From: Chryseobacterium sp. 52
Lineage (GTDB): Bacteria; Bacteroidota; Bacteroidia; Flavobacteriales; Weeksellaceae
Length of the DNA: 64,000 bases
Assembly (NCBI RefSeq): GCF_002754245.1
Contig: NZ_PEEX01000001.1
Location: forward strand, 3,266,001-3,330,000
Direction of reading: 5' to 3'
Part shown: positions 46,686 to 54,921 of the stretch, in pieces
Position numbering within the stretch: position 1 is the stretch's first letter
Layout: each line of letters begins with the position of its first letter
The notes under the pieces: model-generated
What the model was told of the DNA's origin: nothing
Database searches by the model: none
What the model saw: only the letters and a program-made list of their open reading frames with translations
Translations under genes and position numbers: made by a program

Positions 46686-48569
46686 TTATATCTCGTCGAG
46701 ATCAATATCTTCATTGCTTATTTTCACTACGTACTCGATTCCGTCAATAGCTTTTGAAATAATTTGATTTCTAAGAATATTGGCCATATTCTCCCAGTAC
46801 GCTCTTCCATAAAAAGAATAGTTCTGCGGAATGATCTCTACCTCAACGGTTCTTACAAATCCTTCTTTCGGTCTGTTACTGATCATGGTTCCTCTTCTTA
46901 CTCTTACTTCCTTCAACTCATCCTTAAGAACCATTCTGCAGTAATTTTTAACGTCTTCCAGAGAAATGATCTTGTCTCTTGTCGTTAAGGCATATTTATA
47001 GGCCTGAATACTGTCTGTTCCTTTCTGTTCTTCAGAGCCTCCTATGGTTTCTGTAAGAAGTACTACAGTCTGTGATTTCAACTGGTTGGAAAGCTCTGTC
47101 CCGGGACGCATGTGATTGGCCAGCGTACAGTGTGTAACCCAGAATGAAGCATAGGTATGGTCTGTTTTTTCTACAGGTTCCATGATGACATAGTTAAGTT
47201 CTTGTTTGATATTTCTCTTGGCATTGTTCACTTTCTGCACCATGGTCTTCATTTTATCAGACATTTCGCTGAGCACACCTTTAACATTATCTCTGTTTAA
47301 AAGGGAGAATGCTGCGATTTCATCTCTTGTCAGCTCCAGGACATTTGCAATCATGTCTACTGCATTTCTATTGGTAAAACGTTCCATTCCGCCTTTTCTT
47401 ACCGTATACAGACCTTTTTTAAGATCATCTGCGGGAGTGAAAGGAATCTCGGTATATCTTCTGCCATCGCCGTCCTGAACCTCATCCACATACAGGAAAT
47501 GTTCTCCTTCATCTGTAACGAGAGGAATATTGTTCCCCATAATATCCAGACTGTATTCTGTTTTCTTCCAGCCTCTGTTATAGATAGGAAAAGCATTGAG
47601 TACAAATGAAAAGTTATCCAGGATTTCGGCAGAAAACTGCGGTGGAAATTCAAAAGTAAGCCATAGGTAGCTCTTGTCTCCTAGTTGCTTTCTGATATCT
47701 TCTTTTTCATCAAGAAAGTTCAAATTCTCCGGCAGTTTCCCCGGTTCTGAAAACAGGCTGCTCGAAAGTCCCGTGATTTCAATGAATTTATGCCGGTAAA
47801 TACTTTTAATATCTTCAATAGCTTTATTACGGATCGACTGCTCTCTGAACATCTGCTCGTAACCCTCCTGTTGGCTGTTGGCAAGATAACTCAGTCCTTC
47901 TCTTACAAATAAAGGATTTCCGTTGCTGGTAACCGTAATATAAGGCAGAAGTTTATAGACAAAATCCATGTGCTCAAAAGCCGGGTTTGAGCAAAATACA
48001 CTGATATACTTAGGGAAATTTTCACTGGTAAATTTACTGACATCCACTCCTATGGTGATTTTTCTGTAGTCTTCCGGTTTTCCCTGAAATCTTGCGACAG
48101 GTATTTTATTCAATCTGTCATCTATGCTGTAGCAGGTGTTTCCTACAAACATCAATGCAGTCTGTACTTTATTGATCCGTACATTCCCTACTGGTGTAAA
48201 AGGAATATTAAGCTGTTTATCTGATTCTGATTTCACCGTGGATGTCATCTGCTTACGAAAGAAGAACTCTGTATGTTCCAACAGGACTTCAGAAGACTCA
48301 TAAGGTTGTGTAAAAGCAACAGCATGGGCCGGAATCGGATGTGTATAGATAGATGGTGTCAGAAGTTTTGCCAGTTTTTCAAGAATCCGGGCATTGACAG
48401 TCTGAATCTCGTTATTGGCTTTAAAGACTTCCGTACTGAATGCGTCAATCAGTAGTTTTACAAAAGGATCAAGAGATTGCGGGCTTTTCAGTCCCCACAC
48501 TTTGGTGGCATTCTGAAGCATTCTTGCCTTGACAGATTCTTTGGAATATATATTTTGATCTAGGTTCAT
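46686..48569 (-). CDS. tssF: T6SS (subtype iii) baseplate protein TssF
   Basis: 627 residues. The start YSKESVKARMLQNATKVWGL, LIDAFSTEVFKANNEI, and LAKLLTPSIYTHPIPAHAVAF match TssF (VasA/ImpG); divergent from proteobacterial members, as expected for Bacteroidetes T6SSiii. TssF with TssG and TssK forms the wedge of the baseplate. It follows tssE by 24 bp and precedes the DUF3829 lipoprotein by 20 bp. Confidence 0.88.
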   Translation of the reverse strand: MNLDQNIYSKESVKARMLQNATKVWGLKSPQSLDPFVKLLIDAFSTEVFKANNEIQTVNARILEKLAKLLTPSIYTHPIPAHAVAFTQPYESSEVLLEHTEFFFRKQMTSTVKSESDKQLNIPFTPVGNVRINKVQTALMFVGNTCYSIDDRLNKIPVARFQGKPEDYRKITIGVDVSKFTSENFPKYISVFCSNPAFEHMDFVYKLLPYITVTSNGNPLFVREGLSYLANSQQEGYEQMFREQSIRNKAIEDIKSIYRHKFIEITGLSSSLFSEPGKLPENLNFLDEKEDIRKQLGDKSYLWLTFEFPPQFSAEILDNFSFVLNAFPIYNRGWKKTEYSLDIMGNNIPLVTDEGEHFLYVDEVQDGDGRRYTEIPFTPADDLKKGLYTVRKGGMERFTNRNAVDMIANVLELTRDEIAAFSLLNRDNVKGVLSEMSDKMKTMVQKVNNAKRNIKQELNYVIMEPVEKTDHTYASFWVTHCTLANHMRPGTELSNQLKSQTVVLLTETIGGSEEQKGTDSIQAYKYALTTRDKIISLEDVKNYCRMVLKDELKEVRVRRGTMISNRPKEGFVRTVEVEIIPQNYSFYGRAYWENMANILRNQIISKAIDGIEYVVKISNEDIDLDEI

Positions 48570-48593
48570 AAATTTTCTTTGCAGTTAAAACAT

Positions 48594-49034
48594 TTAGTCA
48601 ATAGACATCGGACTTAAAAATAATTCTGTAGAAAAACTAAAACGTTCTCCTGTTGCCTCCATTTTTGCATTGATGGCAATTCTTACTTTCTTTTTGATTT
48701 CCGTGTGTTCTTTGGTATCGTAGCTATGCTCCACAAATTGAATGTGGGCATCTACCTGTGCCTGTACGATGCGGGGTTCATACTCCTGAATCTGCCTTCT
48801 GAGGCTTTTGATGAAAACGCTTTCCCAGACGGCACTGGTAACTCCATTATCGAATTCCAGGTTCCAAACATCGTTTCCATAATTGTCATCATATCTGTTC
48901 TCGCCTTTTTTGGTAGTGATCAGCAGCATGATATTGTGCGCAATGCTTTCGCCCATGTCGCAGATATCAATGCTCCCGCCTTCAGTCATGAGTGTTGAAG
49001 GCACAAAAGGCATTCTGTAATTTGGTGTATCCAT
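48594..49034 (-). CDS. tssE: T6SS baseplate protein TssE (gp25-like)
   Basis: 146 residues of the gp25/GPW family: GGSIDICDMGESIAHNIMLLITTKKGENRYDDNYGNDVW carries the gp25-like ExR segment. TssE starts sheath assembly on the baseplate. First gene of a tssE-tssF-DUF3829 operon; the remaining T6SS genes (sheath TssBC, Hcp, VgrG, TssG, TssK, ClpV) are not in the window. Confidence 0.85.
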   Translation of the reverse strand: MDTPNYRMPFVPSTLMTEGGSIDICDMGESIAHNIMLLITTKKGENRYDDNYGNDVWNLEFDNGVTSAVWESVFIKSLRRQIQEYEPRIVQAQVDAHIQFVEHSYDTKEHTEIKKKVRIAINAKMEATGERFSFSTELFLSPMSID

Positions 49035-51298: not shown

Positions 51299-51330
51299 AC
51301 GTCCTCAAAAGTATTCATTTTTGAGGACGT
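51299..51330. terminator. Bidirectional terminator
   Basis: Perfect 12-bp stem ACGTCCTCAAAA/TTTTGAGGACGT with an 8-nt loop and a T-run; shared by the DUF4920 gene and the convergent M14 peptidase gene at 51358. Confidence 0.9.
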
Positions 51331-51357
51331 TTTTATTTGCTATAAAGATTGATAACG

Positions 51358-52467
51358 CTAATCTTCTATGGTAAATTCTGCTACGGCATCCAACTTTGGA
51401 TATTTGGTAGCTGCTACAAATTTCTTGCCTGTACAGTCTACTTCAAGCCAGCCTTTTTTTCTTTTCACTTCTCCCACTTCCATCACAAAAGGTACAAAAG
51501 ATATTTCCTCTTTTCCTTCTTCTATAATTTCCCGGTACTGAACGGCAACATCCAAAATACATTCATGATCTGTATTCAGTTTTACATTTCTGTAGATAAT
51601 ATCGTAATGCGTTTCCTGATTCTCCGGAATTCCGAGGTAGTTCTCCCAGCCTTCAATATCAGAGTTCAGTTCACTGATGGCTTTCAGTGCATAATATAAA
51701 GCAACTGTATAATATTTCCGGGTTCCTTTTCTTGTATAATCATCTGCAAAATGTCCCCCTTCAAATAAGATTGTGGGCATCCCTGCCTTAATAAAGTTAT
51801 CTCCTGTAGAGGTAGGATAAAACTCATCAGAATATCTTCCGATCTGATTGGGTATTAATTCTTTTAAATGATCATATACCCTTCCTATTACCGCCATACA
51901 TTTTTTCCTGTTATCGGTTACGGTACGTTCTACATTTTCAGAAGGAGCCAAAAAGGAAAGGGTTGCCGGATGTATACCGTCTGTGGTAAAAATGGTTCTC
52001 TGCTCATGCAGATTTAAAGCATAGTCATATGTTTTGGAAGCTGCTGCTTTTTTAAGGAATTTGATCTCTGTACTGGACTCGTTATGAAAATCTCTGTTCA
52101 AGTCAATATCGGCAGCATTCAGCCTTGTCCATCTTTCCGAACCGTCAGGATTGAGCATAAAGATAAAATCCAGTTGTACTTTACTAAAGAGATCTTCTTT
52201 CATTTCCGGAGTTTTATCCAAAGTTTCAAGAAGGTCTAGCATGGCATGAGTAGCATTGGATTCATTGCCGTGCATCTGCGACCACGCAAGAACATGAATG
52301 TTTCCGGTTCCGATGCTTAACTGATAAATAGGTTTATCTAAATATGATCTTCCGATCTCCTGGATGTAACCGCTGAGATTGGTCTGTAGGTAAGAAAATA
52401 ATTTTTCGGGGGAAATATAGCGATTTACAAAGTTAGGGTTTGCTGAATAGCGCTGTTCAAAATTCAT
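51358..52467 (-). CDS. M14-family zinc carboxypeptidase
   Basis: 369 residues from ATG 52467 (MNFEQRYSANPNFVNRYISPE); 24 more upstream residues look non-coding. Zinc ligands in QMHGNESNATHA (HxxE), DLNRDF, and LNLHEQ; FEGGHFADDYTRKGTR near 270. No signal peptide seen. M14 peptidases remove C-terminal residues; the substrate is not known. Its upstream region is the array of palindromic sites. Confidence 0.85.
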   Translation of the reverse strand: MNFEQRYSANPNFVNRYISPEKLFSYLQTNLSGYIQEIGRSYLDKPIYQLSIGTGNIHVLAWSQMHGNESNATHAMLDLLETLDKTPEMKEDLFSKVQLDFIFMLNPDGSERWTRLNAADIDLNRDFHNESSTEIKFLKKAAASKTYDYALNLHEQRTIFTTDGIHPATLSFLAPSENVERTVTDNRKKCMAVIGRVYDHLKELIPNQIGRYSDEFYPTSTGDNFIKAGMPTILFEGGHFADDYTRKGTRKYYTVALYYALKAISELNSDIEGWENYLGIPENQETHYDIIYRNVKLNTDHECILDVAVQYREIIEEGKEEISFVPFVMEVGEVKRKKGWLEVDCTGKKFVAATKYPKLDAVAEFTIED

Positions 52468-52520
52468 TATAAATAATTTACAAGAGTCAAATTTAATGAT
52501 TTTTAGACAGAAAAAAATGA

Positions 52521-53285
52521 TTAACATTTGTAACGCCACTAAACAACCTCAACTGCCATTTTGTCTGTGGATAAAATTGTGGATTGAATATAATATAAAT
52601 TAATAAATATAATTTACTTAAATTCAGTTAGTTACAATATTTATATCAATGATATCTACAAGGTTACTTGAAGTAAGAAAACGGTTGTTTATCAGCGAAT
52701 AAGCATAAAATAGTTAAACATTATTATTGTGGAAAACTATTGAATCACACTTGTATACATATGTAAATTGTTGGTTTTTGTCATTTATCCTTGAAATTTA
52801 CTTGAATTTTCAGCTTAAAACCTAGTCTATTATCCGGAGAAGAATTTTAACCTGTTCTATTAAGTCTACTATCCTTAAATTAATCCATAAAATACATATA
52901 TATAGCCGATTACATCAATTATTTACGTTTGTATACAGCAAAATAGACCCTTATCAGCTAATGAATGGTCATTTACCAGGTAATAATCGAAAATTAGTAG
53001 TTAACATTTGTATATACTATAAACCAGTTACTTATAAATAATTTAACGGATAATTATATTTTATTGATGCGTAACAGCTCAGGTATTTAACGGCATCTAT
53101 TTAATTAGAATGTATTATCTAAAAATAGAGTTTACTTTGTTAAATTGCTTATTTATATACTAGATAAGTATATAAAATACTGTATTTTAATGCATTATAT
53201 TTGTTTACATCTGTATATTTACAATAGTAATGATTATTTACATTTGTAATTTGTTTATGTCTATTTAATTATTTACATTTGTAAA
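52521..53285. promoter_or_regulatory. Array of at least seven palindromic operator-like sites
   Basis: Sites of 14 bp near consensus TTTACATTTGTAAA: 52521 (TTAACATTTGTAAC), 52754 (TATACATATGTAAA), 52922 (TTTACGTTTGTATA), 53001 (TTAACATTTGTATA), 53204 (TTTACATCTGTATA), 53237 (TTTACATTTGTAAT), 53272 (TTTACATTTGTAAA). The last three are 33 and 35 bp apart; the last ends 20 bp before the XRE gene ATG. Partial copies lie near 52891 and 53131. The 838-bp interval has no gene and other AT-rich palindromes (53155-53175, 53174-53188). Confidence 0.75.
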
Positions 53286-53305
53286 ACAATTGACAGCTTA
53301 TTGTT

Positions 53306-53842
53306 ATGAGTTTAAACGAAAGAATTTCCCAAGTTATAGAGTATTCCAATTTCAGTTCTTCTGAATTTGCAGATGAGATCGATGTGCAGCGTTCATCTAT
53401 TTCGCATATCACTTCCGGAAGAAACAAACCCTCTTTAGAATTCATTATCAAGATAAAATCCCGCTTCCCGGAAATTCTCTGGGATTGGCTGGTTACAGGT
53501 GAAGGTGAAATGCTGAAATCGGAGCTTCCGGAAATTGAACCGGCACCGATAGAAAAAAACGAGGATGAGAGAGGAAAGCCTACTCCGCTCCCCGACTTAT
53601 TTACGATGATGAAGGATGATGAAGATTTTGGATCAGAAGAGGAAATAGAGCTCCCAAAACAGGAGCTGCGAGAATCGTTTATACCGCCCCAAAGTAAAGC
53701 TCAGGAAAATATATCAGATTCTCAGCGATTAGAGAATTCCAATGCTCAAATTTTAAGTCAAGCTATTGGAAATCAATCCAATAAAATAAAACGGATTGTT
53801 CTGTTCTACGAAAACGGAAAATTTGAAAGTTTTGAGCCATAA
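53306..53842 (+). CDS. XRE-family HTH transcriptional regulator
   Basis: 178 residues. N-terminal helix-turn-helix (1-70): LNERISQVIEYSNFSSSEFADEI, then VQRSSISHITSGRNKPS. A flexible acidic, Pro-rich linker (about 70-145) and a short C-terminal piece (KIKRIVLFYENGKFESFEP) follow. The HTH is like phage/bacterial Cro/CI-type proteins, with no S24 peptidase part. At least seven palindromes stand upstream, so autoregulation is likely. The regulated genes beyond itself may include the divergent M14 peptidase. Confidence 0.85.
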   Translation: MSLNERISQVIEYSNFSSSEFADEIDVQRSSISHITSGRNKPSLEFIIKIKSRFPEILWDWLVTGEGEMLKSELPEIEPAPIEKNEDERGKPTPLPDLFTMMKDDEDFGSEEEIELPKQELRESFIPPQSKAQENISDSQRLENSNAQILSQAIGNQSNKIKRIVLFYENGKFESFEP

Positions 53843-53846
53843 AAAA

Positions 53847-53871
53847 CCTGGCCAAAGAAAAAATGGCCAGG
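53847..53871. terminator. Terminator-like hairpin
   Basis: Stem CCTGGCCA/TGGCCAGG with a 9-nt A-rich loop and A-rich flanks on both sides, between the convergent XRE gene and the T9SS protein gene at 53902. On the minus strand the A-run gives a T-tract. Confidence 0.65.
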
Positions 53872-53901
53872 ATAAAAAATATTTGAAGAAGAAAACTAAA
53901 G

Positions 53902-54921
53902 CTATTGCTTTATTAGTTTTGTGATTTTTGTATGGCCGCCTTCATTCTTTATTTTCAGAATGTAATTTCCTTTTGGCAGATCTGAAACATTATAGTCTTC
54001 TGAACCTTTCAATGTTCTTACCAACTTTCCGGATGCATCCATAATTTCTACTGAACTTATTTTGAGTTTTTCAGGATTATTAATTTTGAAACTGTCTCTT
54101 ACCGGATTAGGATAAACCTGAATTCTGTTATCATACTGCATCGTTTCCTGTATTCCTAATGTTGTGGCAGTAAATGTAATCACAAATGGCATATCCAAAG
54201 GAACATCCGGGGCAGCGGCAGGATTTCCGGCATCCATTATAGGCGCCCAGGTTCCGGCAATTGCATCCAGCTGCTTGGCATTAAAAGTTGGAAGTCCTCT
54301 GCTCCCTACGATAGTAACTGCAGGCAAGAAACCGGCACTCGCCATCACTACATTTTGCAGTTGGTATTTTACCCAATAGGTTCCTGCATTTAAAGTAGTG
54401 GGTGTATTGGCTGTGATTTTCCAGATCTTTCTGGAAGTTCCAGGTGCTGTGACAACCGGTGTTGTACTGTTCCCGGTTCTATACATATTAGAATCTGCTC
54501 CGGCACTGAATCTGTTGGTTGTATCATCTCCATATACACTTGTAGCGCCAACCACAGAAGGGTCAGAACTAAAAATATTAACCCTTACGGTATTGAAAGG
54601 AGCTGTAGTCCCAACATAGCTGGTCTGGTAGGCAAAAAAATCAATGGTCGTGATCTGCCAGGTAGCCCCGACAGGAACCGTAAAGTCATCAGCGATAAAA
54701 AAGCTGGCTGTAGCAGAACTGGACGTTCCTCCCAATCCAAGGCTGATATTAGATTCTGTAGTATTTCCTGTATTATTCTGAAGTTCAGACCAAGTGTATC
54801 CTGCGGGTGCTGCAGTACCACCTTTAGAAGTGGCTCCCGTACTTAAGCCTCCATTTGCGAAGGTTTGTGCGAAGGTGAAGTTAGCCGCCATAAAGGCAGC
54901 AACGAGTAATGTTTTTTTCAT
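53902..54921 (-). CDS. T9SS type A sorting-domain protein
   Basis: 339 residues, signal peptide MKKTLLVAAFMAANFTFAQ. The body (about 20-250) is Gly/Thr/Ser/Ala-rich beta structure. The C-terminal domain (about 262-339) has VYPNPVRDSFKI, SVEIMDASGKLVRTL and LPKGNYILKIKN, the type A T9SS sorting signal. So it is exported and attached to or released from the cell surface. Function of the body unknown. Confidence 0.88.
   Translation of the reverse strand: MKKTLLVAAFMAANFTFAQTFANGGLSTGATSKGGTAAPAGYTWSELQNNTGNTTESNISLGLGGTSSSATASFFIADDFTVPVGATWQITTIDFFAYQTSYVGTTAPFNTVRVNIFSSDPSVVGATSVYGDDTTNRFSAGADSNMYRTGNSTTPVVTAPGTSRKIWKITANTPTTLNAGTYWVKYQLQNVVMASAGFLPAVTIVGSRGLPTFNAKQLDAIAGTWAPIMDAGNPAAAPDVPLDMPFVITFTATTLGIQETMQYDNRIQVYPNPVRDSFKINNPEKLKISSVEIMDASGKLVRTLKGSEDYNVSDLPKGNYILKIKNEGGHTKITKLIKQ

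Follow-up and report, generated by a model that had tools for sequence, protein, structure and literature searches.

A recurrent array of palindromic sites upstream of an XRE regulator gene in Chryseobacterium and its relatives: a likely multi-operator control region

Background

What is the role of an intergenic region in which one palindromic sequence is repeated over and over? In Chryseobacterium sp. 52, seven near-copies of TTWACATTTGTAWA are located between a divergently transcribed gene for an M14 peptidase and the gene for an XRE regulator. The first-pass annotation of the window, that is, of the whole stretch of 64,000 nucleotides analysed here, had considered that such an array might be bound cooperatively by the regulator, or that it might mark an origin-like or centromere-like site.

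Results

The gap between the start codons of the M14 gene (ATG at 52467) and of the XRE gene (ATG at 53306) measures 838 bp. It had been described as free of genes, and indeed the list of open reading frames of the window contains none of at least 60 aa wholly inside it. What enters the gap is the M14 frame, which can be extended to a GTG at 52539, and a frame on the minus strand that comes in from 53269. No structured RNA was matched in Rfam up to an E value of 1 in positions 51300–54000, and no conserved RNA fold was found on either strand in the left 340 bp of the gap. Four matches of the M14 protein to PDB sequences, mostly to designed proteins and 16 to 32 residues long, were taken as artefacts. 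Elsewhere in the window (46686–49034), two minus-strand frames resemble, judged by eye, baseplate parts (TssF-like and gp25-like) of contractile injection or type VI systems.

With at most one mismatch and on either strand, TTWACATTTGTAWA is found at seven non-overlapping sites in 52465–53305 (Table 1), whereas 500 dinucleotide shuffles contain 0.048 on average and never more than one. The positions reported in the first-pass annotation are confirmed, with about 0.05 sites expected by chance. Sites 5, 6 and 7 follow each other at distances of 33 and 35 bp. The asymmetric centre CATTTG conceals a dyad, TTTACA-NN-TGTAAA, and either orientation of this centre is found at the equivalent place in relatives. 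The symmetric form TTWACANNTGTWAA, again with at most one mismatch, occurs six times in the same gap (shuffle mean 0.15, maximum 2; 1000 shuffles). When three mismatches are allowed, the motif is mildly enriched over the entire window (47 instances versus a mean of 31; 47 or more in 2 of 100 shuffles).

A genome-wide count, as proposed in the first-pass annotation, yielded no excess outside the cluster in the gap. The source genome (5.3 Mb) contains 48 matches with at most one mismatch, seven of which fall in the gap, versus 55 for the reversed control, and the sole perfect match to TTWACATTTGTAWA outside the gap sits within a coding frame. In 60 genomes of the genus, perfect palindromes occur 86 times versus 73 times for the reversed control, a slight surplus in which the copies at XRE promoters are included. 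A large regulon was rejected on the basis of this comparison, which covers perfect palindromes alone. Since these are without clear excess in the 60 genomes, control by the array looks local.

Table 1. Features of the gap and its flanking genes (positions in the window; kept, number of 28 Chryseobacterium relatives with at most two mismatches at the aligned place).
Feature	Position	Strand	Kept	Remark
M14 zinc carboxypeptidase gene	51358–52467	-		divergent; 369 aa; PF00246, E 1.9e-9
Likely M14 -7 box, TAAATTTG	52488–52495	-		conserved; assigned by consensus
Site 1	52521–52534	+	28/28	palindromic; M14-proximal putative operator
Conserved element TGTCTGTGGATAAAATTGTGGATTG	52562–52586	+		between sites 1 and 2; includes one exact DnaA box
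Site 2	52754–52767	.	28/28	palindromic
Site 3	52922–52935	+	17/28	palindromic; weakly conserved stretch, at the presumed former place of terC
Site 4	53001–53014	+	4/28	palindromic; poorly conserved
Site 5	53204–53217	+	28/28	palindromic
Site 6	53237–53250	+	19/28	palindromic
Likely XRE -33 box, TTTG	53250–53253	+		20 bp before the -7 box
Site 7	53272–53285	+	28/28	palindromic; overlies the likely XRE -7 box
Likely XRE -7 box, TACATTTG	53274–53281	+		inside site 7; assigned by consensus
XRE regulator gene	53306–53842	+		178 aa; CI-like HTH (1 to ~65), linker, C-terminal beta hairpin

In the 28 Chryseobacterium relatives, the columns belonging to sites are identical to the window in 79% and the other columns of the gap in 50%. 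Judged by the number of relatives in which each site is kept, with a background of 3.1%, conservation is uneven. Four sites are kept throughout, sites 3 and 6 partly and site 4 hardly. The expectation that sites are conserved while spacers drift across the genus thus held for most of the array, applied in part to sites 3 and 6, and failed for site 4.

In a wider comparison, the best 80 loci of at least 558 confirmed XRE relatives were analysed. Four had short or N-bearing upstream regions and were excluded, and 76 provided 400 clean upstream bases. Of these 76 loci, 74 have TTWACANNTGTWAA within the 400 bp when one mismatch is tolerated, and two have no site. Altogether 206 upstream sites were counted versus a shuffle mean of 5.2 and a maximum of 10, statistics that, like those on spacing given below, are not independent because the 80 loci are related. 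The downstream 400-bp stretches, mostly coding and counted where the locus was long enough, gave 2 sites. The number per locus varies from one to six within 400 bp in the 74 loci, reaching up to eight within 1 kb; three Flavobacterium loci have six sites each in less than 400 bp. The loci with such sites extend from Chryseobacterium and Flavobacterium as far as some assemblies of Bacteroidales. One locus (L298), on a contig labelled Lachnospiraceae, contains an XRE gene and sites resembling an Epilithonimonas locus (L297); its assignment is probably a binning error.

The flanking gene on the other side is less constant. At least 2.5 kb of upstream sequence is available for 72 of the 80 loci, and a divergent M14 gene is present in 62 of these (again among the best 80 of at least 558 relatives). 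In the other ten no divergent M14 gene was recognised and the neighbours vary, yet each of these loci has a site or more within 1 kb. Therefore, the array follows the XRE gene and not the M14 gene, and the description of a dense array beside an XRE regulator is borne out in the relatives. In one genus (g21), M14 is present in all 14 genomes, 10 of which gave no match to XRE and four a weak one; in the seven M14 loci examined there is no array, and one of them has a single site with two mismatches. The array may be missing there due to relocation, since the M14 neighbourhood has changed as well.

The XRE protein matches PF01381 and PF07022 above the cut-off, i.e. it has a CI-like HTH. A structure prediction yields a five-helix N-terminal domain with a pLDDT of about 91, a linker predicted to be disordered and a C-terminal beta hairpin with a pLDDT of 88–89 (alignment of 14 rows, pTM 0.40). 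No S24-type C-terminal domain was matched in Pfam at an E value of 0.01. The core of the HTH, VQRSSISHI.SGRNKPSL, hardly varies among 14 relatives with identities down to 35%. A relative of XRE is found in 59 of 60 genomes of the genus, making it a core gene, and in 234 of 246 genomes of the family, where the distant rows may be paralogues. Our literature searches found no description of this core regulator of Flavobacteriia, nor one of the XRE/array module in work on terminus proteins, the motif, TerC (together with M14, or in Riemerella) or XRE autoregulation in Flavobacterium.

Spacing between sites shows some regularity. Adjacent spacings below 100 bp cluster at 12–13, 20–25, 33–36, 46 and 67–70 bp; other values are present as well (17, 27, 28, 53–59, 79, 87 and 95 bp, and many above 100 bp). 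With a circular statistic, the best period is 11.25 bp for all loci and 11.75 bp for the distant loci. It was matched by none of 1000 random sets when spacings were weighted, figures inflated by kinship, and by 7 of 1000 when distinct values were used. The helical repeat of relaxed DNA is 10.5 bp, below the period of the array. The spacing agrees with helical phasing, but at a period of 11.25–11.75 bp and not of 10.5 bp. This regularity suggests dimers that cooperate in binding to the array, and to this extent the cooperative binding proposed in the first-pass annotation is supported.

The promoters were assigned with the flavobacterial -7 consensus TAnnTTTG, as given in PMC9723704. On the XRE side a likely -7 and a likely -33 element were recognised (Table 1). 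Upstream of the likely M14 -7 box there is no TTG within 30 bp.

In some relatives the gap contains a gene: 16 of the 62 M14-linked loci (among the best 80 of at least 558 relatives) have terC between M14 and XRE. The intervening gene is present in Kaistella, Riemerella, Epilithonimonas, Halpernia and others, and the two copies that were scanned both match TerC (PF03741). None of the 28 Chryseobacterium loci (L257–L284) has terC in the gap; in 59 of the 60 genomes of the genus, TerC-like genes with 43–50% identity to the query lie elsewhere. In the window, some 300 bp at the left of the gap align with the M14–terC spacer of the terC-bearing genera and some 130 bp at the right with their terC–XRE spacer, and the counterpart of site 2 directly precedes terC there. 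The middle is without trace of terC, and an HMM search of 29 gaps gave nothing better than reversed controls. On a tree of 62 M14 rows, which has some long branches and one weak inner clade, the presence of terC needs three changes, a number forced by well-supported branches. Most simply, this would correspond to one gain followed by losses in Chryseobacterium and in Soonwooa. Because terC is present in related genera and a loss in Chryseobacterium is the simplest reading of the tree, the long gap appears to be a scar left where terC was lost. In PMC11960050, a manganese efflux function is cited for a TerC of Riemerella, which may not be the terC of this locus, and in PMC10550928, TerC proteins of Bacillus are stated to metalate exported enzymes. 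At a distant XRE locus (L336), a frame judged by eye to be an MntP-like manganese exporter is located about 1 kb upstream; together with terC at other loci it hints at a link to manganese.

Apart from the palindromic sites, the left part of the gap (~300 bp) contains several blocks that are largely kept across 23 aligned Weeksellaceae rows. These are the element TGTCTGTGGATAAAATTGTGGATTG and, with or without terC, TGTCTGT(G/T)GAT together with TTGTGGATT, and others, e.g. TACTTTAA. They may be bound by a second factor.

Discussion

We consider it likely that the array is a control region in which the 178-residue XRE regulator has multiple operators. As a dimer, the regulator would most likely bind the half-sites TTTACA/TGTAAA with its CI-like HTH, and several dimers, phased on the helix, would cooperate at the promoter of the xre gene itself. 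Through site 7 on the -7 box the regulator could repress its own synthesis, and sites 1 and 2 might extend control to the divergent M14 promoter, perhaps by looping. In related genera terC lies inside the array and is probably under the same control; in Chryseobacterium its presumed loss would have produced a long gap with surviving operators. In favour of this reading are the association of the array with XRE genes, the nearly constant HTH core, the periodic spacing, the overlap of site 7 with the likely -7 box, the lack of an array in the g21 loci examined and the absence of a clear genome-wide excess of the motif. There are also observations against it: the uneven conservation of sites 3, 4 and 6, the two siteless loci among 76, the spacings outside the favoured values, and the conserved blocks in the left part of the gap, which it leaves unexplained.

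Several known systems can be compared. The array resembles that of lambda CI/Cro in having an HTH of the CI kind and several dyad operators, with spacings including 22–24 bp, placed between divergent promoters and with one on the regulator's own promoter. It differs in that XRE is without a match to the S24 peptidase domain and is a core gene, that a locus with sites has one to six of them within 400 bp and up to eight within 1 kb, and that an M14 peptidase is the usual partner. RstR-type phage repressors (NCBIfam NF041951) share similarity with the N-terminal HTH (31.6 bits), but XRE remains below the 80-bit cut-off of that family and has a long linker and a C-terminal hairpin. Like RTP/Ter of Bacillus and MatP/matS of E. 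coli, the locus combines the gene of a binding protein with its presumed sites near the terminus; here, however, the geometry of the array fits autoregulation, and the locus lies well off the skew maximum in two genomes (see below).

The strongest competing candidate is a repressor of the BlaI/MecI/CopY type whose gene lies at another place and for which XRE and M14 would be targets. In PMC7253601, TACANNTGTA is the operator of these repressors, and several such operators may lie over a promoter; this core is exact in four of our seven sites (52754, 53204, 53237 and 53272) and has one mismatch in the other three. The source genome encodes three PF03965 proteins, two with a TACATTTGTA site immediately upstream; the third gene sits behind another frame. 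It is because the core is the operator of the family and two of its three genes carry similar sites that this repressor has to be taken seriously. However, the gene beside the array is that of XRE and not of a PF03965 protein, and the array tracks XRE across many genera and shifting neighbours. Furthermore, the BlaI-linked sites read TCTACA and those of the array TTTACA or TTAACA, and the PF03965 genes are located at 0.949, 2.912 and 3.482 Mb, whereas our locus is at 3.319 Mb. We therefore regard a BlaI-type binder as unlikely. The two BlaI-like genes of the source genome with a site just upstream (L337 and L338) have TCTACATTTGTAGA or TCTACATTTGTATA there, likely their own operators lying on -7 boxes. 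It is very improbable that the repeats are multiplied -7 boxes instead of operators. TAnnTTTG, the consensus of PMC9723704, does occur on the plus strand in three sites (52922, 53237 and 53272), but the dyad is kept in forms lacking TTTG, e.g. TTTACAATTGTAAA in Flavobacterium, and a TTG within 30 bp upstream is found at site 7 alone, at a distance of 20 bp.

A function of the array in chromosome maintenance, as an element of terminus, centromere or origin bound by XRE, was also considered. In the source genome, sampled GC skew places the terminus at roughly 3.2 Mb and the origin at roughly 1 Mb, and all seven 16S genes have the strand expected from it. Hence, the locus is near the terminus, and the origin-like or centromere-like site suggested in the first-pass annotation is not supported. 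The signature of an origin, a switch from negative to positive skew together with diverging rRNA genes, is absent from the locus, and so is a conserved cluster of DnaA boxes. The gap has one exact box, TTATCCACA, which is altered in the three Kaistella rows aligned; in all 31 more distant loci examined, the 450 bp upstream gave no such box. Part of the genus retains a DnaA-box-like pair, its second box being altered in four of nine aligned Chryseobacterium rows (window included); another spot of the source genome, at 147.8 kb, has three DnaA boxes. An origin was rejected on account of the skew, the rRNA strands and the Kaistella rows. As to the terminus, the locus is near the sign change of the skew, in the same orientation, in seven of eight sampled relatives of the genus (G025 weakly; G002 unclear). 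On a finer scale, though, it is about 94 kb away from the maximum in the source genome and at least 85 kb in a second one (G028), where the maximum possibly lies beyond the stretch examined. The terminus regions of these two genomes are syntenic, so that shared ancestry may be all that lies behind the proximity. Scanning the window and four other stretches with dif sequences brought up no convincing candidate, no usable dif sequence was found in the accessible parts of PMC3025954 and PMC3091885, and a search via shared 28-mers was swamped by synteny. Taken as a whole, chromosome maintenance appears highly unlikely. We likewise give hardly any weight to the idea that XRE and the array would form a terminus-proximal nucleoprotein site coupling local transcription to replication or chromosome folding, with a CI-like protein in an RTP- or MatP-like role in Bacteroidota. 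Since many Flavobacteriia and some other Bacteroidota share the arrangement, it is probably a genetic switch that is old and uncharacterised but of a conventional kind, and not a replication origin or centromere.

Conclusion

If XRE is the binder, as we infer from the comparison of related loci, the array offers a testable operator code for a core regulator of Flavobacteriia and its usual partner, the M14 peptidase. In addition, terC would provide a case of a gene that apparently moved into an operator array and was lost from it again, with the outer operators surviving.
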